From Streptomyces hokutonensis (GTDB taxonomy: Bacteria; Actinomycetota; Actinomycetes; Streptomycetales; Streptomycetaceae): DNA of 64,000 nt. The notes under the pieces were generated by a model. It was not told the DNA's origin, did not search any database, and was given only the letters and a program-made list of their open reading frames with translations. The first letter of the stretch is position 1, and every line of letters begins with the position of its first letter. The DNA is taken from the NCBI RefSeq assembly GCF_000376565.1, contig NZ_BARG01000033.1:1-64000 (forward strand). The letters are read 5' to 3'. Made by a program: the position numbers and the translations under genes. This document shows, one piece after another, positions 19,764-51,284 of this stretch.

Positions 19764-19774
19764 GACGGCCTCCT

Positions 19775-23335: not shown

Positions 23336-23752
23336 TCAGGCCGGCGGCATCCGCTTCGACTGGTGCAGGTGCGCCAGGCGCCAGCCCTCCGGGGTCTCCT
23401 CCCAGACGCGCGTCACCGTCTCCTGGACCGGGAACGGCGGGAGGCTCTCGTCGAAGATGATGTGCATCTCCTGGAGACAGGTGGTGATCGCCGTGGTGCC
23501 ACGCACCGTGATGCTGAGCTCCTCGGCCTTGGCGAAAACGTGGCGGCGGCGGGTCCAGGTGAAATGGGCGAAGGTCCTGCCGTCGTCGATCTTTCCGACG
23601 GGGCCGTGGACGGCCCGGCTGTCCTCCAGCATGAGAGAGGCGATCGCGTCTTCGCTCTCGGTGAGAGCCGCGAGCCACGCGGCCTCTGCCTGCTCGATCG
23701 CCTCGATGGTCCCGGTGGTTGCGGTGGATGTGGTGGATGTGGTTGTCGTCAT
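23336..23752 (-). CDS. NTF2-like protein linked to Rieske set 1
   Basis: A 138-residue DUF4440/SnoaL-like protein with blocks EQAEAAWLAALTESED, VHGPVGKIDD, TCLQEMHIIFD, VQETVTRVWEE and GWRLAHLHQSKR. Its ATG overlaps the reductase stop by four bases (ATGA), so translation is coupled. Ring-hydroxylating dioxygenase beta subunits also have the NTF2 fold, but this sequence is not a standard beta subunit. It may be a small subunit or a product-processing enzyme of the Rieske system. It has close relatives at 12271 and 42396. Confidence 0.85.
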   Translation of the reverse strand: MTTTTSTTSTATTGTIEAIEQAEAAWLAALTESEDAIASLMLEDSRAVHGPVGKIDDGRTFAHFTWTRRRHVFAKAEELSITVRGTTAITTCLQEMHIIFDESLPPFPVQETVTRVWEETPEGWRLAHLHQSKRMPPA

Positions 23753-24711
23753 AGGTCCAGCTCCAGAATCGGTGAGTGTGCTCGCGAGGAGCACGTGGTG
23801 AACATGCCGTCGGCGCGCTCACGGTCGGTCAGGATGTCGTCGCGGTGGTCGGGGTCTCCCGCGAGTACGCGCACGATGCACTCGCCGCAGATTCCCTGCT
23901 GGCAGGAGTAGGGGGCGTCGACGCCGGCCGCGAGCAGGACGTCGAGGACGCTCTCGCCGTCCTTGATCTCGTACTCGTCCCCGGACTTGGCGAGCCGCAC
24001 GGTGAAGGCCCCGCCGGCCGTGTGCGCGGCGGTGTCGTCCACGGGTGCGAAACGCTCCTTGTGGATCGCTTCGGCGGGCCATCCCGCTCCGCGTGCGGAG
24101 GAGATCACGAAGTCGATGAAGCCTCCGGGACCACACACGTAGATCGCCGTCTCGGGGTCGGGCGGGCCGATGTCGCCGGTGACGCTGAAGCGCTGGTCGT
24201 CCGGGCCGTCGTCGAAGTGGAGCCGCACGCGGGGGTTGTTCTCCAGCTCCTCGACGAACGCCGAATCCGCCCGACTCCGGGCGCAGTAGTGCAACTCGTA
24301 CTCCGCGCCCCTGGCTTCGAGCGCGTGCGCCATCGCCAGCAGGGGAGTGACGCCGATGCCGCCGGCCACCAGCAGATGGCGACGTGCCTCGTCCGAGACC
24401 CCGAACCTGTTGCGCGGACGGGAGATCCGCAGCCTGTCGCCCTCACGGAGCCGGTGCATCCCCAGCGAGCCGCCGCGCGACGCCGCCTCGGCCAGCACGG
24501 CCAGCCGATAGCGGGTGCGGTCCTGCGGCGGCCCGCACAGGGAGTACTGACGGACCAGCCCGGTGGCACGGTCCACGAGGACGTCGACATGGGCGCCGGC
24601 GGCGAACTCCGGGAGCTCGGCGGCGTCGCGACTGACCAGGTCGAGCACCACGATCCGGGCGGTCGCGTCGCGCCGGGCGACCACGATGGTGTCGAACCAC
24701 TCGTTGCTCAT
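23749..24711 (-). CDS. Rieske oxygenase reductase, phthalate-dioxygenase-reductase type (set 1)
   Basis: A 320-residue electron-transfer flavoprotein with the class IA order: flavin domain (RQYSLCGPP), NAD domain (GGIGVTPLL and YVCGPGGFIDF) and C-terminal plant-type [2Fe-2S] ferredoxin with C-x4-C-x2-C-x29-C in SCQQGICGECIVRV and the final FTTCSSR. It passes electrons from NAD(P)H to the Rieske centre of the oxygenase encoded nine bases upstream. Its stop overlaps the NTF2-like start. Confidence 0.95.
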   Translation of the reverse strand: MSNEWFDTIVVARRDATARIVVLDLVSRDAAELPEFAAGAHVDVLVDRATGLVRQYSLCGPPQDRTRYRLAVLAEAASRGGSLGMHRLREGDRLRISRPRNRFGVSDEARRHLLVAGGIGVTPLLAMAHALEARGAEYELHYCARSRADSAFVEELENNPRVRLHFDDGPDDQRFSVTGDIGPPDPETAIYVCGPGGFIDFVISSARGAGWPAEAIHKERFAPVDDTAAHTAGGAFTVRLAKSGDEYEIKDGESVLDVLLAAGVDAPYSCQQGICGECIVRVLAGDPDHRDDILTDRERADGMFTTCSSRAHSPILELDL

Positions 24712-24720
24712 GGTTCTGGC

Positions 24721-27001: not shown

Positions 27002-27424
27002 ATGCGAGAGCCGCTCAGCTACGAGATCGCGCACGGCGCCGCACTCGCCGCTCTCGAAGCGGGAAGGGCCGACGGGCACAAGGTGTGTGCTGTCGTGGTC
27101 AACCGCAGTGGCGTCACGAAGGTCCTTCTCAGCGACGACGGCGTTGGACTCCTCGGCGTGGAGACCGCGCGACGCAAGGCCTACACGTCGGCCGTGAGTG
27201 GTGTCCCCACGGCCAAGTTCGCGGCATTCGCCGCGTCCCCGCAGATGCAGGTGGCGCCTCCCCACCTGGTCGATGCCAACCTTCTGCCGGTCGCCGGCGG
27301 CGTGCCGATCATGACGGCCGACGGGGAGGTCATCGGCGCGATCGGCGTGGGCGGGGCGGACGACGTCACTGACGACCGCATCGCGCAGCAGGCTCGCGAT
27401 TCCGTCGCGAAGATCGTCGCGTAA
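27002..27424 (+). CDS. HbpS/GlcG-like protein (DUF336)
   Basis: A 140-residue protein of the GlcG/HbpS (Haem_degrading) family, starting MREPLSYEIAHGAALAALEA and containing VVNRSGVTKVLLSDDG, RRKAYTSAVSG, PVAGGVPI and EVIGAIGVGGA. Family members bind haem or corrinoids or act in glycolate or aromatic loci with unclear chemistry. A very similar gene (37580-38002) sits in the GMC operon next to Rieske set 2, so this family accompanies each Rieske locus here. Confidence 0.9.
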   Translation: MREPLSYEIAHGAALAALEAGRADGHKVCAVVVNRSGVTKVLLSDDGVGLLGVETARRKAYTSAVSGVPTAKFAAFAASPQMQVAPPHLVDANLLPVAGGVPIMTADGEVIGAIGVGGADDVTDDRIAQQARDSVAKIVA

Positions 27425-32215: not shown

Positions 32216-33421
32216 ATGAGTGCTTTCCTGTACGCCGCCACTCGCACGCCGTTCGGCCGCTTCAACGGCGCGCTGGCCGGGGTGCGCCCCGACGACCTGG
32301 CCGCCGCCGCGATCACCTCCACACTCGCCCGGGTGCCGGGTCTCGACCCCGCCGCGATCGACGACGTGGTGTGGGGCAACGCCAACGGCGCCGGTGAGGA
32401 GAACCGCAACGTCGGCCGTATGGCGGCGCTGCTCGCCGGGCTCCCGGTAAGCGTGCCCGGCACCACGGTCAACCGGCTGTGCGGGTCGAGCCTCGACGCG
32501 GCGATGACGGCCAGTCGCACGATCGAGTCCGGGGACGCCGAGGTGGTGCTGACCGGTGGTGTGGAGTCGATGACGCGTGCGCCGTGGGTGCTGCCGAAGT
32601 CGGCGAAGCCGTTCCCGGCCGGCGATGTCACCGCGGTGTCGACCACGCTCGGCTGGCGGCTGGTCAACCCGCGGATGCCGAAGGAGTGGACGGTGAGCCT
32701 CGGCGAGGCCAACGAGCAGCTGCGGGAGCGCTTCGGGATCTCCCGCGAGCGGCAGGACGCGTTCGCCGCCCGCTCCCACCAACTCGCCCACCAGGCATGG
32801 GAGTCGGGCTTCTACGACGACCTGGTGGCGCCGGTCGAAGGCGTCGGCCTGGCCCGCGACGAGGGCATCCGGGCCGGATCCACGCCGGAGGTCCTGGCCG
32901 GGCTGCGGCCGGTCTTCCGTACGGCGGAGCAGGGCGGCACCATCACGGCGGGCAACGCCAGCCCGCTCAACGACGGTGCCTCCGCGGTGCTGTTGGGCAG
33001 CGAGAAGGCCGCGGCTGTGATCGGGGCCGACCCGATCGCCCGTATCGCGGGCCGCGGTGTGATGGCGCTGGAACCGCAGGCCTTCGGCTACGCCCCCGTC
33101 GAGGCCGCGAACCGTGCGCTGGCGCGGGCCGGGATCGGCTGGGACCAGGTGGGCGCGGTCGAGCTCAACGAGGCCTTCGCCGTGCAGTCGCTCGCCTGCC
33201 TCGACGCGTGGAAGATCGACCCGGCCATCGTCAACCAGAAGGGCGGCGCCATCGCGATCGGCCACCCCCTGGGCGCCTCGGGCGGCCGCGTTCTCGCCAC
33301 GCTGGCCAAGGTGCTGCGCGAGACGAGGCAACGCTACGGCGTCGCCGCGATCTGCATCGGGGTGGGTCAGGGCCTGGCCGTCGTACTCGAGAACTGCGAC
33401 GTCACGGAGTCGGACCGATGA
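32216..33421 (+). CDS. pcaF: 3-Oxoadipyl-CoA thiolase
   Basis: A 401-residue thiolase cleaving 3-oxoadipyl-CoA to succinyl-CoA and acetyl-CoA, the last step of the 3-oxoadipate pathway. The acyl-accepting Cys89 is in NRLCGSSLDA, His350 in IAIGHPLGASGG and Cys380 in AICIGVGQG; the GVGQG variant is the one typical of PcaF. NEAFAVQ precedes the His. ATG 32216. Its stop overlaps the start of the CoA-transferase A subunit by four bases, giving a tightly coupled pcaF-pcaI-pcaJ operon in that order. Confidence 0.95.
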   Translation: MSAFLYAATRTPFGRFNGALAGVRPDDLAAAAITSTLARVPGLDPAAIDDVVWGNANGAGEENRNVGRMAALLAGLPVSVPGTTVNRLCGSSLDAAMTASRTIESGDAEVVLTGGVESMTRAPWVLPKSAKPFPAGDVTAVSTTLGWRLVNPRMPKEWTVSLGEANEQLRERFGISRERQDAFAARSHQLAHQAWESGFYDDLVAPVEGVGLARDEGIRAGSTPEVLAGLRPVFRTAEQGGTITAGNASPLNDGASAVLLGSEKAAAVIGADPIARIAGRGVMALEPQAFGYAPVEAANRALARAGIGWDQVGAVELNEAFAVQSLACLDAWKIDPAIVNQKGGAIAIGHPLGASGGRVLATLAKVLRETRQRYGVAAICIGVGQGLAVVLENCDVTESDR

Positions 33422-35072: not shown

Positions 35073-36080
35073 TCAGGTGTTCCAGGGGTCCGTTCGCAGG
35101 TGGCGGTCGAAGAAGCGCTCGATCAGCTGGGGGGTAAGCCGCACGGAGCCCTCGGCGTCCGGGAATCGTGAGGACCGCACCGTGGCCGTCATGGGGTTCA
35201 GTTCCCAGGCGCCGGTGTTGAGGAGGCCGTGGTCGGCGCCGTGCACCAGCAGCAGATGGGACTCGGCGCCCGCGGCGACCAGGGTGTCGTGGAGGCGGCG
35301 GCTCTGGGCCGGGCCGATGAGCAGGTCGGCGTCGCCGTGCAGGAGCAGCACGGGCGGCACCCGCGGGTGGGCCTGCCGGGCCGGGCTGGCCTCGACCGCG
35401 GCGGCGGCCCGGTCCGACGGCGGGCCGCCCAGCAGACCCCACGCCGGATCGGAGGGGTCCACGCCCAGCATTCCACCGGGCAGCGCGTCCTCATTGAGCC
35501 GGAGCAGGTCGGTCGGGGGATAGCCCGCCACCACCGCGCGTACGCCGGGCACGCGGGGGGAACCGTCGGTGGCGAAGGCCGTGAGCAGTGCGAGGTGCGC
35601 ACCGGACGAGCTGCCCCACAGGCCGATCGACGCCGGGTCCAGGCCGTAGGCGTCCGCGAGGTCGTGCAGGCGGCCCAACGCGGCCTGGACGTCGTGCAGT
35701 TGCGCGGGCCAGACGGCGACCTCGGAGGAGCGGTACTCGATGTCCGCCATGGCGTATCCGCGTTCGGCGAAGAGCCGGGGCAAGTGGGGTCCGTAGCCCC
35801 GGCGTTGATGCCGCCAGCCGCCACCCGGCAGCCATACGATCACGGGGGTGGGGGTCGTCGCGGACGACGTCGGCAGGTACAGATCCATCCGCAGGTCCAC
35901 GCCCGGTGCCGCGCCGTAGGCGATGTCGCGCACCACCCGGACGGACGTGGTGTCGACCCTCTCGGGCGGGAGCGGTGCCCGGCTGAGCCCTTCCATGAAG
36001 CGGCCCATGACCGCGGCGTTGTTCGCCGCCACGGCCGTCGGGTCTGAGGTGTGCGGCTGCTGTGAGGTCTTACTGGTCAA
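35073..36080 (-). CDS. Alpha/beta hydrolase (HSL-like carboxylesterase)
   Basis: A 335-residue esterase. The oxyanion-hole motif is WLPGGGW (HGGG-type with Pro in place of His), the nucleophile elbow GSSSGAH, with an Asp in LLLHGDADLLIG and the His in HGADHGLLN. The start TTG 36080 overlaps the end of the DUF59 gene and has AGGA seven bases before it, so translation is probably coupled; a later ATG (MGRFMEG) is possible. It ends the five-gene GMC operon and may hydrolyse an ester or lactone in the same route. Confidence 0.88.
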   Translation of the reverse strand: MTSKTSQQPHTSDPTAVAANNAAVMGRFMEGLSRAPLPPERVDTTSVRVVRDIAYGAAPGVDLRMDLYLPTSSATTPTPVIVWLPGGGWRHQRRGYGPHLPRLFAERGYAMADIEYRSSEVAVWPAQLHDVQAALGRLHDLADAYGLDPASIGLWGSSSGAHLALLTAFATDGSPRVPGVRAVVAGYPPTDLLRLNEDALPGGMLGVDPSDPAWGLLGGPPSDRAAAAVEASPARQAHPRVPPVLLLHGDADLLIGPAQSRRLHDTLVAAGAESHLLLVHGADHGLLNTGAWELNPMTATVRSSRFPDAEGSVRLTPQLIERFFDRHLRTDPWNT

Positions 36081-36468
36081 CGGCTGGTCCTGTTCTGGTC
36101 ATGGTGAGAAGGGGGAGGGTGCGACGCTTGTGTGCACGGTGTTCGTCGAGCCGTTGCCGGTAGTGCGGTGCGAGCCGGTCCGGGGTCCAGTCGAAGTCGT
36201 CGGCCAGCCGCACGTCCACTGCGGAGACACCGGGCAGAGCGATGAGCCGGACCTGGGCCTCGGTCGCGAACGAGCCGATGAGCACGCAGCTCGGCTCTGT
36301 CACGCCGACGGTGACCGCGATGCGCTGACCGCCGGCGCCGTCGTCCTGTACGCGAACGTCACCGACGAGTCCCATGTCGTCGAGTCCGGCGGGGACCCCC
36401 GCGGTGATGCTGCACGGATCGAGGATCGCGTTGAGCGTCGCGCGGACCTGGGTTTCCGTGACCGTCAT
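36070..36468 (-). CDS. DUF59/MIP18-type metal-sulfur cluster assembly factor
   Basis: A 132-residue protein with the FeS_assembly_P (DUF59) domain: VRATLNAILDPCSITAGVPAG, the motif normally containing DPE here reading DPC, then MGLVGDVRV, and GVTEPSCVLIG with the conserved T-x-P-x-C. Related SufT and PaaD proteins help load iron-sulfur clusters. ATG overlaps the amidohydrolase stop (ATGA). Its presence in a catabolic operon divergent from a Rieske oxygenase suggests it matures an Fe-S or metal enzyme of this route. Confidence 0.85.
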   Translation of the reverse strand: MTVTETQVRATLNAILDPCSITAGVPAGLDDMGLVGDVRVQDDGAGGQRIAVTVGVTEPSCVLIGSFATEAQVRLIALPGVSAVDVRLADDFDWTPDRLAPHYRQRLDEHRAHKRRTLPLLTMTRTGPAVDQ

Positions 36469-37541
36469 CGGGCACCGGCCAGTACGTCGTCGACCGGGGC
36501 GGCCCGTCCGCCCCACGGCTGTCGGAGTTCGGTGGTGTCGAACTCGTCGCCGCGGATGCGCGCGCGGACGTCCTTCTCGTCGATGCCGTGCATCCGCAGG
36601 AAGTTGCGGCCGAGGATGTCGGCTTTGATCTCCTTGGTGAGCTCGGGCAGCCCGTACTCCTCGATCAGGTCACGGGGCATCTCGAAGTTCCAGAACGCCT
36701 CGATGGCCGGCCGGGGGTGGACGGCGTCGCAGCCGGTCGCCCAGATGATCCGCTCGGCGGCACCGGCCTGGAGGAAGGCACCCATCGCCTGGGCGAAGCG
36801 GCGGGGCGCGTAGACGGCCATGAACGACGTGGCCTCCAGGTTGACCCATATGTTGCGGAAGGACTCCAGCTGAAGGGCCGTTTCCTCGACGAAGGCCATG
36901 CCGCCGTGGACGACTTCGAAGGTGAGGTCGGGGAAGGCCAGCGCGGCGGCTTCCACGTCACTCATCCCGAGGGCGGAGGTCGGCCCGGGCCCGACCGGGA
37001 GGGCCTTGTGGATGGCCACGACCTTCAGACCGTGCTGCCGCGCCCGCTCCAGCAGCGGGAAGCAGATCTCCGGGTCACCCATGTCCAGCGCGGTCACCCG
37101 GCCCTCGACGACGTCGATCGGATAGAGCTTGAGGGCATTGACCCGGTGCTTCTCCACCAGCTCGTCCACCCGGTCCAGGGCGCCGGGGCGCAGCGGGGAC
37201 ACCGCGCCGTAGATCAGCACGCGCTCCGGCCACTTCTCGCGCATCTCAAGGCCGATGCCGAGCGCCGAGCCCCCGTCCCGGAAGTGGCCGTAGATGGGCG
37301 TCTCGTGGTAGGCGATCACGTCGGTCTGGCTCTCCGCGAGCAGGGCCCGGCCGATGATGTCCGCGCCCGCGCCCTGCATGTAGGTGGAGCGTTCGAGGGT
37401 GTATTCGGGGCCGCTGACCCGCTTGTGCAGGCCGTAGAGGTGCTCGCCGATGGCCGCTCCGATGTGCGGGTTGACGCAGTTCTCGGGCCGGAAGTTGTAG
37501 TTGTGGGCCACGCCCTCGACGACGAGGAAGTCCTCGATCAC
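36465..37541 (-). CDS. Amidohydrolase family protein (COG2159-like)
   Basis: A 358-residue TIM-barrel metal-dependent hydrolase/decarboxylase. Visible metal or catalytic regions are VVAIHKALPV, FEVVHGGMAF and WATGCDAVHP with the terminal Asp. The N-terminus has VEGVAHNYNF instead of the usual D-x-H-x-H, so the metal site is not standard. Relatives include 6-methylsalicylate and gamma-resorcylate decarboxylases as well as plain hydrolases. GTG 37541 has AAGGAG seven bases upstream. It is translationally linked to DUF59 downstream. Confidence 0.85.
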   Translation of the reverse strand: MIEDFLVVEGVAHNYNFRPENCVNPHIGAAIGEHLYGLHKRVSGPEYTLERSTYMQGAGADIIGRALLAESQTDVIAYHETPIYGHFRDGGSALGIGLEMREKWPERVLIYGAVSPLRPGALDRVDELVEKHRVNALKLYPIDVVEGRVTALDMGDPEICFPLLERARQHGLKVVAIHKALPVGPGPTSALGMSDVEAAALAFPDLTFEVVHGGMAFVEETALQLESFRNIWVNLEATSFMAVYAPRRFAQAMGAFLQAGAAERIIWATGCDAVHPRPAIEAFWNFEMPRDLIEEYGLPELTKEIKADILGRNFLRMHGIDEKDVRARIRGDEFDTTELRQPWGGRAAPVDDVLAGAR

Positions 37542-37579
37542 GGTCGTTCTCCTTCGGGTGTCACGGGTGGTACGGCTGC

Positions 37580-38002
37580 TCAGGCGAGCAGGTCCTTCAG
37601 GCCTTCCAGGGCGCGGGAGGCGAGTCGTTCGTCGGTCTCGGCGTCGGCTCCGCCGACGCCGACGGCACCGATGACCTCGCCGTCGTCCACGGTGATGGGC
37701 ATCCCGCCCGGTACGGCGAGGAGGCCGGCGTCGACGTGGTGCACGGGCGCGACCGCCATCGCGGGTGACGCGGCGAAAGCGGCGAACTTCGAGGTCGGCA
37801 CGCCGGTGACGGCGGCGGTGTAGGCCTTGCGGCGCGCGGTCTCGATCCCGAGGGGGCCGACTCCGTCGTCGCTGAGCAGCACCTTGGTGATGCCGCTGCG
37901 GTTGACGACCGCCACGCAGATTCGCGCCCCCTCGGCCCGCGCCGCGTCCAGCGCGGCCTCGGCCGCCTTGTGCGCGATGGCGTACGACAGCGGTTCCCTC
38001 AT
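37580..38002 (-). CDS. HbpS/GlcG-like protein (DUF336), second copy
   Basis: A 140-residue DUF336 protein, close in sequence along its whole length to the protein at 27002: MREPLSYAIAHKAAEAALDA, VVNRSGITKVLLSDDGVGPL, RRKAYTAAVTGVPTSKFAAF and GEVIGAVGVGGAD. ATG overlaps the GMC stop by ATGA. The 36-bp gap to the amidohydrolase contains that gene's AAGGAG. The repeated association with Rieske loci suggests haem or small-molecule binding in the pathway; no activity can be read off. Confidence 0.9.
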   Translation of the reverse strand: MREPLSYAIAHKAAEAALDAARAEGARICVAVVNRSGITKVLLSDDGVGPLGIETARRKAYTAAVTGVPTSKFAAFAASPAMAVAPVHHVDAGLLAVPGGMPITVDDGEVIGAVGVGGADAETDERLASRALEGLKDLLA

Positions 38003-39660
38003 CCCGCGGTCCTCTCCTGGAGCGGGGCACCGGAGGCCGCCGGAATGCCACGGATCAGGTCCGAGGCCTTCTCCGCCACGGCGATGACGGTGGCGTTGAT
38101 GTTCGCGCCGGGCACGGTCGGCAGCACCGACGCGTCGACGACACGCAGTCCGTCGATGCCGCGCACCCGCAGCTCGAGGTCGACGACCGAGGTCTCGGAG
38201 GTTCCGATGGCGCACGTGCCGCAGGCGTGGTTGGCGGAGTAACCGGTCTCGCGCAGATAGCGCTCGAAGTCGGCGTCGGTGCGCACGTCGGGGCCCGGTG
38301 CGAGCTCCGCCCGGATCATCGGGGAGACCTCCGGGCTGCGCAGGAGGGCCAGCGTGGTGCGCACGGTCTCCCGCAGCGCGGCGACGTCCTCCGGCTCGGT
38401 GAGCAGGTTGAACGTGATCCGCGGCGGGGCGGCCGGGTCGGCGGAGCCCAGCCTGACCTCGCCGCGGCTGCGGGGGGTCGCGACGGCGTTGAGGGCCACG
38501 CAGTGCCGGTCCTTCAGCGGCCGGATACCGGGGAACCACGGCCGGGCGTCGAAACCGCCGGCCAGGATGCCGAGGAACCCGTCGGGACGGTCCAGGTCGG
38601 GGCGGGTGCGAATGTACGCGGAGAGGAACTCGGGCATCCCGGCCAGCGGACCGTTCCCCGTGAGCAGCCAGCGGAGCGCGCCCACCGCCGCGCGGTCGGC
38701 GCGCAGGTGCTCGTGGAAGGTCACCGGATCCCTGACGTCGAACAGCACGGGAGCCGCCGGGTGGTCCTGGAGGTTGGCGCCGACGCCGGCCAGGTCCGCC
38801 ACCGGTCCGATGCCGTGCTCGCGCAGGTGATCCGCAGGTCCGATGCCCGAACGCATCAGCAGCTGCGGCGAGTTGTAGACACCCGCACAGACCACGACCT
38901 CGCGAGCCGCCCGGATCACCCGGCTTCGCCCGCCCTTCACGACACGGACGCCCGTCACGCGTCCCCGGTCGAGCACGAGCGTGTCCACCAGCACCCCGGT
39001 GAGCAGGGCGAGGCCGGGGCGTCGACGCAGCGCGGGGCGCAGGTACGCGGCGGCGGTGCTGTGCCGCCGCCCGCGGTGGATGGCGTTCTCGACCTGGCCT
39101 GCTCCGGTGGGGTCCCCGCTCTGGGTGTCGTCGGGGAACCCGATGCCCAGCGATCGGGCGGCGCGGTCCAGACGGCGGCCGAAGGGACCTCGCCGGACCG
39201 TGGTCGACACGGTGACGGGTCCGTACCCGCCGTGGTGCTCGGTGTCCCCGCGCCAACTGCTCTCCGAGCGGCGGAAGTACGGCAGCAGGTCATCCCAACC
39301 CCAGCCCGTCGCACCGGACTTGACCCAGTCGTCGTAGTCGAGGCGGTGCGCGCGGACATGGGTCGAGCCGTTGATCGATCCGGTGCCGCCGACCAGCCGG
39401 CCACGCGGAACCGGGATACGCCTGCCGTTCAGGCCCGGCTCGGGCTCCGACTCGTAACCCCAGCCGATGTCCTCGCGTCCCGACAGCAGCCCTACCCCGA
39501 GGGGGAGTTGAACGAGCAGACCGCGGTCCGCGGGCGGGCCGGCCTCGATCAGCAGCACCCGTGTCCCGGTGTCCGCGGACAGGCGCGCGGCGAGGACGCA
39601 GCCGGCCGTGCCGGCGCCGACGACGACGTAGTCGTACTCGGCGCTGTGTCCGGTGCTCAT
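37999..39660 (-). CDS. GMC family FAD-dependent oxidoreductase
   Basis: A 553-residue GMC oxidoreductase (choline dehydrogenase/alcohol oxidase group). FAD motif VVVGAGTAGCVLAARLS lies near residue 10, and GMC signature 1 is in GRLVGGTGSINGSTHVRAH. Signature 2 lies in VVVCAGVYNSPQLLMRSG, and the active-site His is in SANHACGTCAIG. It oxidises a primary alcohol, possibly aromatic. ATG 39660 starts directly before the FAD strand; longer frames add only arginine-rich sequence. First gene of the five-gene operon, divergent from Rieske set 2. Confidence 0.93.
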   Translation of the reverse strand: MSTGHSAEYDYVVVGAGTAGCVLAARLSADTGTRVLLIEAGPPADRGLLVQLPLGVGLLSGREDIGWGYESEPEPGLNGRRIPVPRGRLVGGTGSINGSTHVRAHRLDYDDWVKSGATGWGWDDLLPYFRRSESSWRGDTEHHGGYGPVTVSTTVRRGPFGRRLDRAARSLGIGFPDDTQSGDPTGAGQVENAIHRGRRHSTAAAYLRPALRRRPGLALLTGVLVDTLVLDRGRVTGVRVVKGGRSRVIRAAREVVVCAGVYNSPQLLMRSGIGPADHLREHGIGPVADLAGVGANLQDHPAAPVLFDVRDPVTFHEHLRADRAAVGALRWLLTGNGPLAGMPEFLSAYIRTRPDLDRPDGFLGILAGGFDARPWFPGIRPLKDRHCVALNAVATPRSRGEVRLGSADPAAPPRITFNLLTEPEDVAALRETVRTTLALLRSPEVSPMIRAELAPGPDVRTDADFERYLRETGYSANHACGTCAIGTSETSVVDLELRVRGIDGLRVVDASVLPTVPGANINATVIAVAEKASDLIRGIPAASGAPLQERTAG

Positions 39661-39922: not shown

Positions 39923-40127
39923 CGTACAACAGCATGAACGCCTCAGGGGCGCACACCGCTCGAGGTGCCCGTCCGCCCCTGTGCGAGCGTGCCGGAAGAG
40001 CCGCCGCACGCTCGTGCCATGACGCCTCGCGACAGCGCGAAGCAGCCTCGACCGCGGGCCGTCCGACCCCTTCGAGCGGCCCTCGTACACGCGTCCCCAC
40101 TGCCTCAACGCCGAGGAGATGGTCCAC

Positions 40128-41426
40128 ATGACCGACACGACCGTGCCCGACACGGGAACCGGCTACGGCCGTAAGCCCTCCTCCCACGACGCCCGCCTGA
40201 CCGAGGTCGGCCCCGGCACTCCGATGGGCGAGGCGCTGCGCCGCCACTGGCAGCCGATCGCCAGCTCCACCGCTCTGACCAGCGACGTTCCGCATCGCGT
40301 GCGCCTGCTGGGCGAGAACCTGATCGTCTTCCGGGATGGCCGGGGCCGCCCCGGCGTCGTCTTCGAGCGGTGCGCGCACCGAGGCAGCAGCCTCTTCTAC
40401 GGTCGCGTCGAGGAGGACGGCATCCGCTGCTGCTACCACGGCTGGAAGTTCGACGTGCAGGGCCACTGCCTGGACCAGGCCTGCGAACTCGACGGCGGCA
40501 AGCGCCGCAATCTCGCACGTCAGCCGTGGTATCCGGTGGAGGAGGCCTACGGCCTGGTCTTCGTCTACATTGGCCCGCCCGAACTCAAGCCCCCGCTGCC
40601 GCGCTACGACAGCCTCGAACCCCTGGGCGAGGGCGAGAGCTACCACACCAGCTGGACGGTGCCCGGCGCCGAGGTCATCGGCCTGGAGCAGGACTACAAC
40701 TGGCTCCAGCTGTTCGAGAACGCCGTCGACCCCGTCCACGCCGCGTGGCTGCACTCCAACCACAGCGGGTTCCAGTTCCAGGGTACCGGCACGACCGGCT
40801 TCCCCGAGCACTACTACGACCACCGTACCGCCGCCGAGCGCACCACCTACCACCGCACCGACAACGGCGTGAAGTACGTCTGGCGCTACCAGGACACCAA
40901 GGGCGACGGTGGCGCACCCGTCGACCTGGAGTGGTCGGTGGAGTGCATGCTGCCCAACATCATCGCCCTGCCCGACTTCATCCGCTCGACCCCCGACGTC
41001 CGCAACGACATGCTGATCTGGGTCGTCCCCGCCGACGACACCCACCACCGGCTGGTCTTCTCCATCCGCTCCGCCGACCCCGAGCGGGCCACCTCCTTCA
41101 TGTTCGGCATCAAGCAGAACGGCAAGGACGGCTGGCAGCTGAGCGAGGAGGAGAAACAGCGCTTCCCCGGCGACTACGAGGCCCAGTGGTCCCAGGGCCC
41201 CATCACCCAGCACTCCGAGGAGACCCTGGCGCCGTCCGACAAGGGCGTCGTCATGCTCCGGCGCATGCTGCGCACGATGCTGGACGACGTCGAGGCCGGA
41301 CGCACCCCGCTCGGCGTCGCTACCCCCGGCGAGCCGGTCCGCCGTGTGGAGGCCGGCCTCGTCACCCGGCCGGAGGCGCCCACGGAGACGGATTGGGCGG
41401 CAGCGCCCACGGCGGCAGGGGCGTGA
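40128..41426 (+). CDS. Rieske non-heme iron oxygenase, phthalate-type (set 2)
   Basis: A 432-residue oxygenase component paralogous to 24721-26010. Rieske ligands C82, H84, C101, H104; mononuclear iron site D201, H204, H209 in ENAVDPVHAAWLH. ATG 40128 is preferred over 40119 because GAGGAG lies nine bases before it. The reductase starts eight bases after the stop and the NTF2-like gene follows, repeating the order of set 1. Phthalate-type single-subunit oxygenases act on aromatic acids and ethers; which one is not evident. Confidence 0.95.
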   Translation: MTDTTVPDTGTGYGRKPSSHDARLTEVGPGTPMGEALRRHWQPIASSTALTSDVPHRVRLLGENLIVFRDGRGRPGVVFERCAHRGSSLFYGRVEEDGIRCCYHGWKFDVQGHCLDQACELDGGKRRNLARQPWYPVEEAYGLVFVYIGPPELKPPLPRYDSLEPLGEGESYHTSWTVPGAEVIGLEQDYNWLQLFENAVDPVHAAWLHSNHSGFQFQGTGTTGFPEHYYDHRTAAERTTYHRTDNGVKYVWRYQDTKGDGGAPVDLEWSVECMLPNIIALPDFIRSTPDVRNDMLIWVVPADDTHHRLVFSIRSADPERATSFMFGIKQNGKDGWQLSEEEKQRFPGDYEAQWSQGPITQHSEETLAPSDKGVVMLRRMLRTMLDDVEAGRTPLGVATPGEPVRRVEAGLVTRPEAPTETDWAAAPTAAGA

Positions 41427-41433
41427 CCGAAGC

Positions 41434-42399
41434 GTGAGCACCATCTGGACGGACGCGGTCGTCGTGGCCCGGTACGACGCCACGCCGAGAATCGCGGTCC
41501 TCGACCTCGCCCGGGCCGACGGCGACGAACTGTGGGAGTACGAGCCGGGTGCCCACATCGACGTACAGGTCGGTACGGCGGGACTGATCCGGCAGTACTC
41601 CCTGTGCGGACCACCGGGCATCCGCAAGCAGTACCGGCTCGCGGTCCTCGACGAGCCCGCCTCGCGGGGCGGTTCACGCGCCATGCACGCCCTCGCCGAG
41701 GGCGACACGCTGCGCATCGCCGCACCGCGCAACCGCTTCGGCCTGACGTCCGCGCGCCGGCACGTGCTTCTCGCGGGCGGCATCGGTATCACCCCGCTGC
41801 TGTCGATGGCCCAGAGCCTCGACGCCACCGGGGGCGACTACCACCTGCACTACTGCGCCCGCAGCCGCAGCGAGGCCGCCTTCCTCACCGACCTGGAGAA
41901 CCACCCGCGGGTCACCCTCCACTTCGACGACGAGCCCCCGGAGCAACGCCTGGATCTGGCAAGCGACTTGGGGGACCCCGCTCCCGGGACCGCGGTCTAC
42001 GTCTGCGGCCCCGGCGGGTTCATGGACTACGCGCTGGGGCGGGCGGCCGAGCTCGGATGGCCCGCGTCCGCCCTGCACAAGGAGCGCTTCAGCGCCTCGC
42101 CCCCGGTCGCGACCGAGCCCGGCGGGGGAGGGGAAGGCGGATTCACCGTGCGCCTGTCCTCCACGGGCGCGGAATACCTCGTCCCCGAGGACCAGAGCGT
42201 CCTGGACGTCCTGCTGGCGAACGGCGTCGCGGCGCCCAACTCGTGCGGACAGGGCATCTGCGGCGAATGCATCGTGCGGGTGCGCGCCGGTGAGCCCGAC
42301 CACCGGGACGACGTCCTGACCGACGAGGAGCGCGGGGAGGGTCTGTTCACCCCCTGCTCGTCCCGGTCGAAGTCCCCGATCCTGGAGCTGGAACTGTGA
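41434..42399 (+). CDS. Rieske oxygenase reductase (set 2)
   Basis: A 321-residue phthalate-dioxygenase-reductase-type protein: flavin motif RQYSLCGPPG, NAD motifs GGIGITPLL and YVCGPGGFMDY, C-terminal [2Fe-2S] with C-x4-C-x2-C-x29-C (NSCGQGICGECIV, ending FTPCSSR). GTG 41434. A glycine-rich linker precedes the ferredoxin domain. The stop overlaps the NTF2-like start (GTGA). Confidence 0.95.
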   Translation: MSTIWTDAVVVARYDATPRIAVLDLARADGDELWEYEPGAHIDVQVGTAGLIRQYSLCGPPGIRKQYRLAVLDEPASRGGSRAMHALAEGDTLRIAAPRNRFGLTSARRHVLLAGGIGITPLLSMAQSLDATGGDYHLHYCARSRSEAAFLTDLENHPRVTLHFDDEPPEQRLDLASDLGDPAPGTAVYVCGPGGFMDYALGRAAELGWPASALHKERFSASPPVATEPGGGGEGGFTVRLSSTGAEYLVPEDQSVLDVLLANGVAAPNSCGQGICGECIVRVRAGEPDHRDDVLTDEERGEGLFTPCSSRSKSPILELEL

Positions 42400-42839
42400 C
42401 CACCTCATCGACCGCGGCGAAAGACCTCGCCGACGCTGCCCCCGACCCCGCCTCCGCTCCCGCCACGGTCGAGGAGGCCGAGGCCGCCTGGCTCGCCGCC
42501 CAGACCCTCCCGGACCCGGAACCGGCGCTCCGCGCCCTGATGCATCCCGACTGCGTGATCGTGCACTCGGCGGTGGGCCACATCCACGGCGTCGACGACT
42601 GGCTGCGGTACGCGGCACGCCTGGGGCGTACCAGTCAGGTGGACACCCATGACGTGACCGTCCAGCGCTTCGGCACCACGGCCGTGGTCAGCTGTCTCCA
42701 GGAGATGCGGGTCGCCTTCGTGCCCGAGCTGACCCCGTTCGTCATCCAGGCCGTCGTCACCCGGGTCTGGGTGCGCTCCCCGTCGGGCGGCCGGCAGTTG
42801 GCGCACCTCCAGATGGCCCGGCGGCTGCCGCCCGGCTGA
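42396..42839 (+). CDS. NTF2-like protein linked to Rieske set 2
   Basis: A 147-residue DUF4440/SnoaL-like protein. After a 20-residue Ala/Pro-rich leader come VEEAEAAWLAAQT, MHPDCVIVHSAVGHIHGVDD, VVSCLQEMRVAF, IQAVVTRVWVR and LAHLQMARR. GTG 42396 is coupled to the reductase stop. It is the counterpart of 23336-23752 and supports the idea of a fixed three-gene Rieske cassette. Confidence 0.85.
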   Translation: MTTSSTAAKDLADAAPDPASAPATVEEAEAAWLAAQTLPDPEPALRALMHPDCVIVHSAVGHIHGVDDWLRYAARLGRTSQVDTHDVTVQRFGTTAVVSCLQEMRVAFVPELTPFVIQAVVTRVWVRSPSGGRQLAHLQMARRLPPG

Positions 42840-45635: not shown

Positions 45636-45778
45636 CAGAAGCGCCCTTCTTCGGCCGGCTCGCGCAGGCTCGCTGCCCGATCCGCCAGTGGGTACGAAAA
45701 GTCTTCGTCGACCATCGCCACCAACTCTTCCGTCGTTTCGTCGTAGGACTGCGCGTTCATCGAGCAGCCGCTTCTCAT
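45635..45778 (-). CDS. Small ORF coupled to VOC gene, 47 residues
   Basis: The frame, from ATG 45778 or 45760, reads TTEELVAMVDEDFSYPLADR and ends EEGRF, with mostly G or C third positions. Its TGA shares a base with the VOC ATG. No family is recognised. It may be a small protein or a leader that sets VOC translation. Confidence 0.4.
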   Translation of the reverse strand: MRSGCSMNAQSYDETTEELVAMVDEDFSYPLADRAASLREPAEEGRF

Positions 45779-45944
45779 GCTCGTTCCGCGCGCGCCGATT
45801 TCGCTTGCCTCCCTGGGGCAATCCGCTGCGCCGGATTTGGCGTATCGGGGCAAGCGACGCGCGGGTGCGGGGGGTTTGACTCGATCCACTCCTCATCCCA
45901 CGGCAACGAGGCCGGGTGAGAAGGAGCGGACGAAGGGAACGACG

Positions 45945-47195
45945 ATGTCGTCGAACGACACAACCGCTGTGATCGGCGATCTCCGGGTACCGGAGCCGGA
46001 CCTCACCCCGCAGGAGGTCATCGCCCGTGCCGCGGCGATGCGCCCGACTCTTCGCGAGAATCGCGTGAAAGCAGCGGAGGAGGGCAGGTACTCGGCCGAG
46101 CTCCACAAGGCGTTCGAGGACGCCGGCTTCTACCGCCTCGTGCAGCCGCGGAAGTACGGCGGGTACGAGTTCGGCCTGGAGACGTACTACCGGACGATGA
46201 TCGAGATCTCGCGCGGCGACCCCGGCATCGGCTGGTGCCTGACCCTGGGGACCGGTCACACGGTCCCCTTGGTCGCGCACTTCCCGGAGGAGGTGGTGCG
46301 GGAGGCCTTCGGCGAGGACGGTGTCTTCATCGCGCCGCACTCCGCCACCCCCCGAGGAGCGCTCGTCCCCACGGAAGGCGGATACCGCCTCACGGGGGAG
46401 TGGCCGTACTCGTCCGGTGTCCCGTACTCGACCCACGCGATGGTGAGCACGATCATCCTGGCCGAGGGCAGTGACCCCGTCCCGGCCGTGGCTCTCCTCC
46501 CACGCGGCGACTACTCCGTCCGGGACGACTGGGGAGCGCACGCCACGATGGCCCTCGGCGCGAGCGGGTCGAACACGGTCGTCGTGGAGGACGTCGTCAT
46601 CCCGGCCGAGAACGTGTCTCCCCTGTTCGAGTGGGGATACTCGAACTTCCCCGACGGCACGCACGGCACCCGTTCCACCGGCAACCCCCTGTACCTGGGC
46701 CAGATCCAGCCGCTGTATCCGGCCTCGCTCGCGGCTGTCCAGGTCGGAGCGGCGTGGGCGGCACTAGACGCCTACGAAGAGACCATCCTGACCAAGAAGC
46801 GCCTGTACCCGCCGCTGGTCGAGCGGTACAAGCACGAAGAGAGCCAGAGGATCTGGGGCCAGGCACGGGCGACGATCGACGCCGCGCAGGCCGTCCTTCT
46901 CACAGCGGCACGCGACTACGAGCGGCTGGGCGAGCGTTGGGCGAGCGGTGACCACCCGACCTTCGAGGACTGGGTTGCCCTCGGCAACGTGCTGTACGCG
47001 TCGTGTCGGCTGTCCCACGAGGCCACTGAACTGCTGTTCCGCTCGGTGGGCTCCTCGGTGGCGCGGAAGGGGCTGCCGCTGCAGGACTACTTCCTGGTGA
47101 CGCAGATGTCGAAGGCGCAGATCGCGGAGCACGTGCCCGTCATCACCATGACGACGGCGAGGGCCCACTTCGGGCTGGACCTGAACACCATCTAG
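45945..47195 (+). CDS. Acyl-CoA dehydrogenase-fold flavin monooxygenase (HsaA/HpaB-like, group D)
   Basis: A 416-residue protein with the acyl-CoA dehydrogenase fold: N-terminal helices (AFEDAGFYRLVQPRKYGGYE), the flavin-contact region GEWPYSSGVPYSTHAMVST, VVVEDVVIPAENVSP and a C-terminal helical domain. It lacks the CoA-enzyme catalytic Glu context and looks like a group D two-component hydroxylase that uses FMNH2 or FADH2 from a separate reductase (HsaA, HpaB, resorcinol or chlorophenol hydroxylases). ATG 45945. Divergent from the VOC unit. The likely reductase is at 49953, separated by broken genes. Confidence 0.85.
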   Translation: MSSNDTTAVIGDLRVPEPDLTPQEVIARAAAMRPTLRENRVKAAEEGRYSAELHKAFEDAGFYRLVQPRKYGGYEFGLETYYRTMIEISRGDPGIGWCLTLGTGHTVPLVAHFPEEVVREAFGEDGVFIAPHSATPRGALVPTEGGYRLTGEWPYSSGVPYSTHAMVSTIILAEGSDPVPAVALLPRGDYSVRDDWGAHATMALGASGSNTVVVEDVVIPAENVSPLFEWGYSNFPDGTHGTRSTGNPLYLGQIQPLYPASLAAVQVGAAWAALDAYEETILTKKRLYPPLVERYKHEESQRIWGQARATIDAAQAVLLTAARDYERLGERWASGDHPTFEDWVALGNVLYASCRLSHEATELLFRSVGSSVARKGLPLQDYFLVTQMSKAQIAEHVPVITMTTARAHFGLDLNTI

Positions 47196-48090: not shown

Positions 48091-48325
48091 ATGCCCGGAA
48101 CCGACGAAGCGGCGAAGGCGATAACGGCCGCCGCCGTGGACAGTTTCCGTGACACCCCGGACCCTCGGCTGCGTGAACTGCTCCAAGGGCTCGTGCGCCA
48201 TCTGCACGGCTACGTCCGTGAGTTGCGCCCCACGATCCAGGAGTGGGAGTACGCGGTGGACTACCTCACCGCCGTCGGGCACAAATGTGATCCCACCCGT
48301 CAGGAGTTCATCCTGCTCTCCGACG
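48091..48325 (+). pseudogene. Hydroxyquinol dioxygenase N-terminal remnant
   Basis: The frame from ATG 48091 gives DTPDPRLRELLQGLVRHLHG, then EWEYAVDYLTAVGHKCDP and QEFILLSDV, which match residues of about 25-98 of the intact dioxygenase at 18831. At LSDV homology stops and the sequence runs out of frame into maleylacetate reductase. All iron ligands are missing. Confidence 0.85.
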
Positions 48326-49285
48326 TGCGTGCTGTGCTCGCCCGGACAGCGGGAGCTCGCCGCGACGGTCGCCGGTCTCATCGGTCCCCGCGCCGTGGAC
48401 ATCCACCCCCACGCCCGTATGCACGTGCCCGCCGAGTCGGCGGCCGAGTCCCAACGACGCGCGAAATTGGTGAACGCGGACGGCTGCGTCGCCGTCGGCG
48501 GCGGCTCGGCGATCGGCCTCGGGAAAATCGTCGCCCTCCGCTACGGCCTGCCGGTCATCGCCGTCCCGACGACCTACGCCGGGTCCGAGATGACGCCCGT
48601 GTGGGGTGTGACCGAGAACGGCGTCAAGCGCACCGGCCGCGATCCATGCGTCCTGCCGGTCTCCGTGCTGTACGACCCCGCGCTAACCGTGACCCTGCCC
48701 CCGGCCGTCTCCGTGACCAGCGGCATGAACGCCGTCGCGCACGCGGTCGAGGCCCTGTACGCCCCGGACGCCTCCCCCATCGTCGACCTGATGGCCGAGG
48801 AAGGCGTACGGGCGCTGGCCGTCGCACTCCCGGACCTCGTGGCCGACGGCACCGACCTCGACGCCCGCGCCCAGGCCCAGTACGGCGCCTGGCTGTGCGG
48901 CGCCTGCCTCGGGGCCACCACCATGTCCCTGCACCACAAGCTCTGCCACGCCCTCGGCGGCACCCTCGACCTGCCGCACGCCCCCACCCACTCCGTGGTC
49001 CTCCCGCACGCCCTCGCCCACAACCAGGGCACGGCGCCCAAGGCGGTGGCCGCGCTAGGCCGCGCCCTGGGCACCCCCGCCGACCCGGCCACCCACCTGT
49101 GGGACCTCGCCGGCCGGCTCGGCGCCCCGCGATCCCTGAGGGAGCTCGGCATGGCCGAGAGCGCCATCGACCGGATCGTCCAGGTCACGCTGGCCAACCC
49201 CTACGCCAACCCCCGTGAGGTGACCGCGGACGGCCTCGGCCGTCTCCTGCGCGCCGCCTGGTCCGGACAACCCCCGACCGCCTGA
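48326..49285 (+). pseudogene. Maleylacetate reductase lacking its N-terminus
   Basis: The frame starts VLCSPGQRELAATVAGLIG, corresponding to about residue 35 of the intact enzyme at 19775, and continues to the normal C-terminus through AVGGGSAIGLGKIVALRYGL, TTYAGSEMTPVWGVTENG, HHKLCHALGG and HAPTHSVVLPHALAHN. GTG 48329 could start a 318-residue product, but the first beta-alpha unit of the NAD-binding domain is gone. It is fused, one frame off, to the dioxygenase remnant. The rest has no stop codon, so loss is recent or partial function remains. Confidence 0.85.
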
Positions 49286-50552: not shown

Positions 50553-50705
50553 CGCGATCGCATCTCGGTACACCCCCACCGCGCCAGAGCCCAAGTCAGT
50601 CGGATCTCCGCCGAGATCAGGAGCTCCGTCATGACGATCCACGCGGTAACAGACCCACATGTCGCCGCACCCCGCGTCCCGTATCAAAGGAGCAGAGAAC
50701 TTCCC

Positions 50706-51284
50706 ATGGCCAAGCTGAAGATCATCATCGCGAGCACGCGGCCGGGCCGGATCGGCCGCACCCTCGGTGAGTGGTTCGAGAACCACGCCAAGGAACACGG
50801 CGGATTCGACGACATCGAGCTGTTGGACCTGGCGGAGGTCGACCTGCCGTTCATGAACGAGCCGCACCACCCGCGCCTGGGTACGTACACCCACCAGCAC
50901 ACCCGTGACTGGAGCGCCAAGGTCGCGGAGGCGGACGCCTTCGTGTTCGTGATGCCGGAGTACAACTTCGGCTACAACGCCGAGTTGAAGAACGCCATCG
51001 ACTACCTGCACCGCGAGTGGCAGTACAAGCCGGTCGGCCTGGTCAGCTACGGGGGTGTCTCGGCCGGCACCCGTGCCGCGCAGATGATCAAGCAGGTCCT
51101 GACCACCTTGAAGATGACACCGGTCGTCGAGTCGGTGTCGATTCCCTTCGTGCACCAACTCATCGACGAGGAAGAGGGCTTGGTTGCGAACGACGTCATG
51201 ACCGGATCCGCGACAGCGATGCTTGACGAACTCGTCCGCGTAGAGGCGGCCTTGCGCGCACTGCGCTCGACCACGAAGGCGTGA
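50706..51284 (+). CDS. NADPH-dependent FMN reductase
   Basis: A 192-residue flavodoxin-like FMN_red protein: KLKIIIASTRPGRIGRTLGEW with the phosphate loop, then ADAFVFVMPEYNFGYNAELKN, the family signature, and GLVSYGGVSAGTRAAQMIK. It reduces FMN or quinones. Start is uncertain: ATG 50706 fits the family but AAAGGAG lies 13 bases upstream, whereas ATG 50631 has AGGAG at seven bases and would add 25 residues. It may serve with the flavin reductase upstream in the same direction. Confidence 0.9.
   Translation: MAKLKIIIASTRPGRIGRTLGEWFENHAKEHGGFDDIELLDLAEVDLPFMNEPHHPRLGTYTHQHTRDWSAKVAEADAFVFVMPEYNFGYNAELKNAIDYLHREWQYKPVGLVSYGGVSAGTRAAQMIKQVLTTLKMTPVVESVSIPFVHQLIDEEEGLVANDVMTGSATAMLDELVRVEAALRALRSTTKA

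Follow-up and report, generated by a model that had tools for sequence, protein, structure and literature searches.

Proteins of the DUF59 and Nfu families are regarded as general helpers of iron–sulfur (Fe–S) proteins, and amidohydrolases as enzymes that load their own zinc or manganese. In Streptomyces hokutonensis, one gene of each kind stand side by side inside a five-gene operon of contig NZ_BARG01000033.1, of which the first 64,000 nucleotides were analysed (the window): an Amidohydro_2 protein of 358 residues (36465..37541, minus strand) and a short DUF59 protein of 132 residues (36070..36468, minus strand). The two genes represent a branch-wide module of amidohydrolase plus helper with an apparently rewired metal site. 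The DUF59 protein is, on balance, probably a dedicated partner for metal loading or maturation of the adjacent amidohydrolase and not of the Rieske oxygenase encoded divergently from the operon, and the reading that ties it to the Rieske protein is disfavoured.

The closest described proteins on the helper side are the SufT and other DUF59 (MIP18) Fe–S maturation proteins, which share with the window protein the fold, the cysteine of a T-x3-C motif and a small single-domain build. The window-type protein differs from them in having DPC for DPE, which gives a second invariant cysteine, and in its amidohydrolase neighbour. PaaD, from the phenylacetyl-CoA epoxidase operon, is also a DUF59 protein of a catabolic operon and has been suggested to serve its neighbour's iron (PMC4498308). 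The neighbour of PaaD is a diiron oxygenase complex, however, whereas that of the window protein has the amidohydrolase fold, and the window DUF59 protein reaches only 20.9 bits against the PaaD model (NCBIfam TIGR02159; cut-off 108.15). On the enzyme side, PtmU3, AibH2 and SfbO have the PF04909 fold, iron or Mn/Fe and a gene for an Fe–S protein next door; their partner is a Rieske ferredoxin, and the window protein seems to be without their six-ligand set. Such dinuclear oxygenases are described as PF04909 proteins that were found through the gene for a small Rieske ferredoxin next door, and the other characterised PF04909 enzymes as either cofactor-free or dependent on a mononuclear site with Mn or Zn (PMC10811679).

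A pair of the same kind has been drawn before. The propane/phenol monooxygenase (mim/prm) operons contain an amidohydrolase gene and an "iron-sulfur cluster assembly protein" gene that form a sister branch of the window pair (type B amidohydrolase with a long DUF59 protein). They differ in that the type B enzyme keeps a His at position 11 and Asp270, and in that its DUF59 protein is about 240–280 residues long and reads DPE. The pair is labelled in a figure legend without explanation (PMC9213486), the same two genes are listed elsewhere (PMC12783916), and a third report lists the second of them as a protein of unknown function (PMC6849523). That report also cites earlier work in which the chaperonin of such operons proved essential for functional heterologous expression. 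The passages seen of the literature on DUF59, amidohydrolases and monooxygenases give drawings or gene lists and no role for the pair; none treats the three together, and DUF59 with an amidohydrolase appears only in unrelated work. The amidohydrolase-like protein of one such cluster is entered in a proteome table at 3.2 +/- 0.5, which we take as percent relative abundance (PMC7176365).

Conservation of the pair across bacteria and archaea

A DUF59 gene lies next to the amidohydrolase gene in all 14 genome loci with a related amidohydrolase that were compared. Within the phylum, an amidohydrolase profile gave 71 matches in 53 of 396 genomes (E <= 1e-40), and a DUF59 gene was found within 2.5 kb of the amidohydrolase in 29 of the 30 matching loci that were fetched, the window locus being one of the 30. 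The exception (L052) lies at a contig edge and holds two tandem amidohydrolases, with a DUF59 match of the same genome on another contig. On plasmids, haloarchaeal ones included, a DUF59 or NifU partner accompanies 34 of 35 amidohydrolase matches; 30 of these were opened (29 with a partner), and the other five partners come from the coordinates of separate searches. Both L052 and the partnerless plasmid gene (H15/L182) stay inside these counts. The hosts include Streptomyces, Rhodococcus, Bradyrhizobium, Sphingopyxis, Paracoccus, Peribacillus, Thermomicrobium and haloarchaea. The DUF59 gene is downstream of the amidohydrolase in some loci and upstream in others, and the two genes frequently overlap. 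We regard the pairing as strong evidence and hold the mechanism proposed for it with moderate confidence.

In a tree of 39 amidohydrolases from such pairs and 25 others of the same genome as the window, the 39 form one group (Shimodaira–Hasegawa-like approximate likelihood ratio test 97, quick method), which divides into types A (n = 19), A' (n = 11), B (n = 8) and C (n = 1). The partner is a short DUF59 protein in types A and A', a long one in type B and a NifU protein (Pfam NifU, 3.3e-12) in type C. One family of Fe–S helper has thus been swapped for another beside the same enzyme, as would be expected if the amidohydrolase is the client. In Staphylococcus aureus, overproduction of Nfu is reported to mitigate the loss of SufT (PMC8593673). 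The plasmids on which a NifU-like CxxC protein, and not DUF59, is the partner belong to Shinella and Ensifer (L062, 4797..6100; L091; L184).

The pairing is reciprocal. When single sequences were searched against 72,556 plasmid records, the window DUF59 protein matched eight records, the long DUF59 protein 17 and the NifU variant six, and every match adjoins an amidohydrolase of type A (8/8), type B (17/17) or type C (6/6), respectively. A second short DUF59 query gave nine matches, eight of them beside an amidohydrolase; the ninth is a 60-residue fragment from Haloterrigena, and its record is not among the amidohydrolase matches. This isolated fragment (Haloterrigena alkaliphila, NZ_CP084319.1, 31790..31969) is possibly a decayed copy. 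In the 396 genomes, a profile of the short DUF59 proteins (A5) gave 31 strong matches above a drop in score (E <= 1.1e-26), all in genomes that bear the amidohydrolase, and the 29 with fetched loci (L129–L157) all lie within 700 bases of it; 18 of the 31 had been used to build the profile and 13 were new to it. Below the drop, the protein of L158 reads DPE and is not near an amidohydrolase.

As a control, the 26 Amidohydro_2 genes of the window's own genome were inspected over about 1.5 kb on either side, and the window gene alone has a DUF59 neighbour there, NifU neighbours having been sought with one sequence only. None of the 30 best PF01883 loci (119 genomes) is within 700 bases of such an amidohydrolase, although these loci are a biased sample, and weaker matches of the same list do adjoin type B amidohydrolases (for instance G085:C3:361097, beside an amidohydrolase at 361430). 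The two partners also diverge together: over 30 pairs their correlation is 0.85, and none of 5000 permutations exceeds 0.38.

The amidohydrolase site and the two cysteines of its partner

The canonical ligands of Amidohydro_2 enzymes are HxH or E/DxH on beta1, a His on beta5 and an Asp on beta8. The window amidohydrolase departs from this set by reading V11-x-H13 and Gly270, with His178 kept; as the initial annotation had noticed, the standard N-terminal HxH is absent, the sequence being V11-A12-H13 with the second His alone retained (His13, just after beta1; 37503..37505, minus strand). At the place after beta8, Gly270 stands for the usual Asp and is followed by a conserved His275, with Pro276 next (Gly270 to His275, 36717..36734, minus strand), and Glu236 lies just after beta7 (36834..36836, minus strand). 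Across the 39 aligned sequences, Lys138, His178 and His212 are invariant. Glu236 is invariant in type A only, where it goes with Gly or Ala270 (19/19), where His275 is constant (19/19) and where no sequence has His at position 11; Ala or Pro236 is combined with Asp or Glu270 in types A', B and C (20/20). Type A' has Glu270 in 11/11 and His275 in 10/11, and types A, A' and C together have no His11 and keep His275 in 30/31. Type B follows the usual plan, with His11 and Asp270 in 8/8 and His275 in 0/8. Thus, judging from the swaps in the alignment, beta8 appears to have gained the His that beta1 lost, and beta7 of type A the carboxylate that beta8 lost.

The best model of the window amidohydrolase is a triosephosphate isomerase (TIM) barrel (predicted local distance difference test, pLDDT, 83; predicted template modelling score 0.87). 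The modelling of the metal site envisaged in the initial annotation bore out the barrel, with candidate ligands at the predicted strand ends. His13, Lys138, His178, His212, Glu236 and His275 are predicted to lie at the ends of beta1 and beta4–beta8 or directly after them, on the active-site face of a TIM barrel. By alignment and model, the site reads as a rewired metal site and not as a dead one.

The closest solved relative by both profile and fold is BB4693 (PDB 3irs), itself uncharacterised, which comes first in a profile search of solved structures (2.7e-13) and gives the best fold match (Z 24.4); the single amidohydrolase sequence had no match among solved structures at E 0.01. Aromatic-acid decarboxylases match the fold with Z 19.7–21.1. 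The gamma-resorcylate, 2,3-dihydroxybenzoate and 5-carboxyvanillate decarboxylases share both the fold and the setting in aromatic catabolism, but two members of the decarboxylase ligand set, the first ligand of the beta1 motif and the Asp of beta8, are replaced in the window amidohydrolase. AibH1H2, SfbO and relatives, the amidohydrolase-related dinuclear oxygenases, match with Z 18.3–18.9; in the profile search of solved structures AibH1H2 is not listed, and among the structures of the SfbO paper only 8sm8 appears (E 0.31 over 26 positions). The reported ligands of AibH2 are Asp25, His27, His211, Glu265, Asp337 and His340 (PMC7782822). V11 and G270 occupy two of the places where AibH2 ligands are expected, as judged from the type B alignment and strand position and not from a direct alignment to AibH2. 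A dinuclear oxygenase was considered as an identity for the window protein and set aside, the six-ligand set, as reported for AibH2, seeming by this indirect comparison to be absent. An intermediate that is carboxylated or derived from an ester is the probable substrate of the window amidohydrolase; beyond the aromatic setting, the gene content of the window gives no substrate prediction for it.

The fold model of the DUF59 protein matches the solved DUF59 proteins 3lno, 3cq2 and 1uwd (Foldseek 2.3e-7 to 3lno, template modelling scores 0.65/0.78), and its sequence matches 1uwd at 1.5e-9. The published motif of the family is DPE-x26-31-T-x2/3-C, and the SufT of Mycobacterium tuberculosis is reported to have one strictly conserved cysteine (PMC9045647). 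The window protein reads DPC-x37-T-x3-C, so that the T...C half is kept and the Glu has become a Cys. Its DPC (Asp17-Pro18-Cys19; 36412..36420, minus strand) and Cys61 (36286..36288, minus strand), the conserved reactive cysteine of the family according to the motif in PMC9045647, are each invariant in the 32 aligned short partners. DPC is found in 28/28 readable partners of L129–L157, a set that overlaps with the alignment, and in 50/50 readable short partners of the remaining loci, from which L158 (SufT-like) and L054 and L056 (DPE) were set apart; general DUF59 loci have DPE in 30/30. The short-DUF59 scores of L054 and L056 are weak (25 and 47 bits) because their DUF59 proteins read DPE. 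L056 groups with type B amidohydrolases, and in L054 the DUF59 gene adjoins the second, lower-scoring of two tandem amidohydrolases. DPC and T-x3-C together therefore provide two invariant cysteines, the minimum for a carrier of a metal or cluster.

Possible roles of the DUF59 protein

In the mechanism that we favour, the DUF59 protein, with its DPC...T-x3-C and the second conserved cysteine, would bind the adjacent amidohydrolase and help to load its metal, most likely iron, into the TIM-barrel site formed by His13, His178, His212, His275 and Glu236 (with Lys138). The loaded enzyme would then catalyse a single step, a hydrolysis or a decarboxylation, and its substrate would be an intermediate made or used by the glucose–methanol–choline (GMC) oxidase, the esterase and the Rieske oxygenase. 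We infer the physical contact, the loading, the identity of the metal as iron and the nature of the reaction. What is observed is that the pair is conserved reciprocally, that one branch has switched to NifU, that the short helper has a two-cysteine motif, that ligands are relocated in the alignments and that a Rieske link is lacking elsewhere.

Several points weigh against this mechanism. Delivery of iron ions by a DUF59 protein has a weak precedent, PaaD, for which it is a suggestion (PMC4498308), and the SufT of M. tuberculosis is reported to bind neither Fe nor Fe–S (PMC9045647). No column of the amidohydrolase alignment has Cys in half of its 39 rows, and a cysteine-held Fe–S cluster in the enzyme is therefore unlikely. 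The convergence of the ligands is judged from predicted strand ends only, with beta8 predicted as two residues (265–266) and the mean pLDDT of the five models running from 83 to 57. Each ligand swap is a single event on the tree, position 13 is His in only 6/8 type B sequences, and the single clade is partly built in, since the 39 amidohydrolases were gathered by similarity; the correlation of the partners' divergence carries no control for the species tree. The truncated amidohydrolase of Natrinema caseinilyticum (H15/L182) has no partner within 4 kb. This gene (L182, 3998..4747) is possibly a decayed copy.

The initial annotation saw in the divergent Rieske oxygenase a possible client of the DUF59 protein. 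Maturation of its [2Fe-2S] cluster by that protein now appears quite improbable. DUF59 proteins are described as serving Fe–S proteins, the Rieske genes in question (set 2) adjoin the operon in seven Streptomyces loci, and the five genomes of the genus (of 199) with set 2 orthologs (at least 84% identity) are those with the amidohydrolase. Outside Streptomyces, however, the pair stays together with no Rieske motif nearby. The motif is absent from 26 genome neighbourhoods that hold the pair (6.5 to 21 kb; 20 regions of 6.5 to 20 kb, 16 of type A or A' and four, L175–L178, of type B, plus six non-Streptomyces loci, among them L012, a near-copy of L011) and from 29 opened plasmid stretches (9 to 17 kb), and the pair is kept in 54 of these 55 stretches, the truncated H15 being the exception. 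As a positive control, the seven Streptomyces loci, a Streptomyces plasmid and the window give one or two Rieske motifs each. The window's own genome has three other DUF59 genes, and in one genome of the genus (G513) the Rieske ortholog and the pair are on different contigs. Another genome (G527) has two Rieske relatives (60–63%), no amidohydrolase at E 1e-60 and, in place of a strong match to the window DUF59 protein, one weaker general DUF59 match; this is weak evidence, as its Rieske relatives are no closer to set 2 than is set 1 of the window. The co-occurrence in five genomes favours a shared Streptomyces pathway of the pair and the Rieske set, and within Streptomyces the DUF59 protein may possibly have an added effect on the Rieske protein.

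Dedicated loading of the amidohydrolase has also to be set against three other explanations. The DUF59 (or NifU) protein could be a standing subunit of the amidohydrolase, structural or electron-carrying, in an enzyme like the dinuclear oxygenases with their small Rieske ferredoxins. This is unlikely but has points in its favour: the pairing is strictly one to one with genes that often overlap, the fold matches AibH1H2, SfbO and relatives (PF04909 proteins too, with a neighbouring gene for a small redox protein; PMC10811679), and a cluster bridging a dimer could be bound by the two conserved cysteines. The AibH2 ligands, as far as they are reported (PMC7782822), nevertheless seem not to be kept (Val at position 11, Gly at 270), the aromatic-acid decarboxylases match somewhat better, and no reductase is constant beside the pair in the neighbourhoods examined. 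A still less probable explanation is that the two proteins act as one complex in the maturation of another nearby metalloenzyme, such as a soluble diiron monooxygenase. Type B pairs do occur in monooxygenase operons with a GroEL-like chaperonin, an A' and a B pair share one such neighbourhood (L169), and PaaD is reported to be needed in vivo for the PaaABCE monooxygenase (PMC4498308). Conversely, of 25 genome neighbourhoods three show monooxygenase genes, the annotation gives no metal oxygenase in the stretches from haloarchaea, Thermomicrobium, Peribacillus and Rhizobium N324 (the plasmid gene tables being incomplete), and in Mycobacterium AT1 the amidohydrolase, the unknown protein and an alcohol dehydrogenase are reported to lie away from the monooxygenase (PMC6849523). 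Ordinary catabolic clustering, with the DUF59 protein serving general Fe–S assembly and the amidohydrolase acting as a zinc hydrolase or decarboxylase, would suit loci that look catabolic and the cofactor-free or mononuclear Mn or Zn sites described for non-oxygenase PF04909 enzymes (PMC10811679). It is very improbable, as the reciprocal exclusivity on plasmids (one fragment apart), the switching of partners and the single positive among the 26 control genes do not fit it.

A more far-reaching reading can be put forward tentatively. It treats this branch of amidohydrolases, found in both bacteria and archaea, as iron enzymes of a new class with a rewired site, which cannot be loaded without a private Fe–S-type chaperone in the form of a DUF59 protein (long, or short with two cysteines) or a NifU protein. 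On this reading, some members might use oxygen, and the amidohydrolases of the propane/phenol monooxygenase operons would belong to the new class. The findings suggest that an uncharacterised group of enzymes, now labelled "amidohydrolase family protein", needs dedicated metal loading. They offer a possible role for two unexplained genes of the propane/phenol monooxygenase operons, and assisted loading could explain failed heterologous expression of such amidohydrolases.

Some loci combine or vary these modules. L169 (7291..19896) combines an A' pair with a B pair in a single neighbourhood that also has genes for an alcohol dehydrogenase and a soluble diiron monooxygenase, L170 (5420..19900) has an A' pair and a long DUF59 gene with the same two kinds of gene, and L172 (9170..13967) has an A' pair together with a long-DUF59 pair, or a long DUF59 alone, and an alcohol dehydrogenase. 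The three look as if two such modules served one pathway. Type B pairs are also found beside gloA and a "C-terminal binding protein" gene in Rhizobium sp. N324 (L093) and beside a DJ-1 family gene in Peribacillus (L060), neighbours that hint at dicarbonyl or ketone chemistry.

The Streptomyces operon and its surroundings

The operon runs on the minus strand from 39660 to 35073, and all five genes described in the initial annotation are present with names that Pfam supports. The first encodes a GMC oxidoreductase (37999..39660; PF00732/PF05199, GMC_oxred_N 1.7e-50) and the second an HbpS-like protein (37580..38002; PF03928, 1.1e-28). The amidohydrolase, the likely client of the DUF59 protein, begins with GTG and scores 60.1 bits against PF04909 (3.9e-16; cut-off 26.4). 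The DUF59 (FeS_assembly_P-like) protein reaches 21.7 bits against PF01883 (2.4e-4), slightly below the curated cut-off of 23.5, which six relatives of the gene pass. The last gene encodes a BD-FAE/alpha-beta hydrolase esterase with a TTG start (35073..36080; PF20434, 2.6e-42). The tight linkage reported earlier holds as well: the GMC/HbpS and amidohydrolase/DUF59 junctions are ATGA overlaps, 38 bases separate the HbpS-like gene from the amidohydrolase, and the DUF59 and esterase genes overlap by 11 bases, provided that the esterase starts at TTG. Rieske set 2 is indeed divergent from the operon (40119..42839, plus strand). It is context outside the conserved pair and consists of the Rieske oxygenase (40119..41426; PF00355, 4.7e-17), a ferredoxin reductase (41434..42399; Fer2, DmmA-like, NAD_binding_1; its start was picked by eye, and the profile table begins at 41428) and a DUF4440/SnoaL-like protein (42396..42839; PF14534, 2.6e-11).

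Conservation of the five-gene set, which the initial annotation had left to be sought in other genomes, was seen in Streptomyces only. The five genes and the divergent Rieske set are found in seven of eight Streptomyces loci among the 14 compared, and the full set is also on one Streptomyces plasmid; in the eighth (L003), the end of the contig leaves the amidohydrolase as the first gene, and no esterase turned up behind the DUF59 gene. In the six non-Streptomyces loci (Goekera, Paraburkholderia x3, Mycolicibacterium and Jiangella), only the amidohydrolase and DUF59 genes stay adjacent. The nearest relatives at the window locus are from Streptomyces, with an amidohydrolase 97% identical. The amidohydrolase is rare in the genus (six copies in 5 of 199 genomes), which argues for an accessory island, and a DUF59 gene accompanies all six copies, that of the window included. 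In G513, a second amidohydrolase–DUF59 pair, 71% identical, is on another contig (C41:12137-13587). The best reading is that the operon is part of a Streptomyces accessory island for aromatic catabolism and that two of its genes, those for the amidohydrolase and DUF59, make up a module whose own history reaches much more widely. The catabolic setting claimed for the operon is upheld, as is the view that a DUF59 gene there merits a second look.

A hydroxyquinol-type aromatic route leads to 3-oxoadipate. The window (69.6% G+C, in a genome of 11.8 Mb) contains an intradiol dioxygenase inside the open reading frame at 18831..20312, an Fe-ADH at 19775..20842, which we take to be a maleylacetate reductase, a gene like that of 3-oxoadipyl-CoA thiolase at 32237..33421 and CoA-transferase genes up to 34772, named by eye only. 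From this gene content, the window likely encodes such a route. A second Fe-ADH (48149..49285) possibly duplicates one of its steps. Near Rieske set 1 there is a second HbpS-like gene (27002..27394; 73% identical), and the reductase of that set (23752..24717) is 62% identical to the reductase of set 2. An acyl-CoA-dehydrogenase-like gene (45777..47195) and a gene for an NADPH-dependent FMN reductase (50631..51284) possibly encode a two-component flavin monooxygenase.

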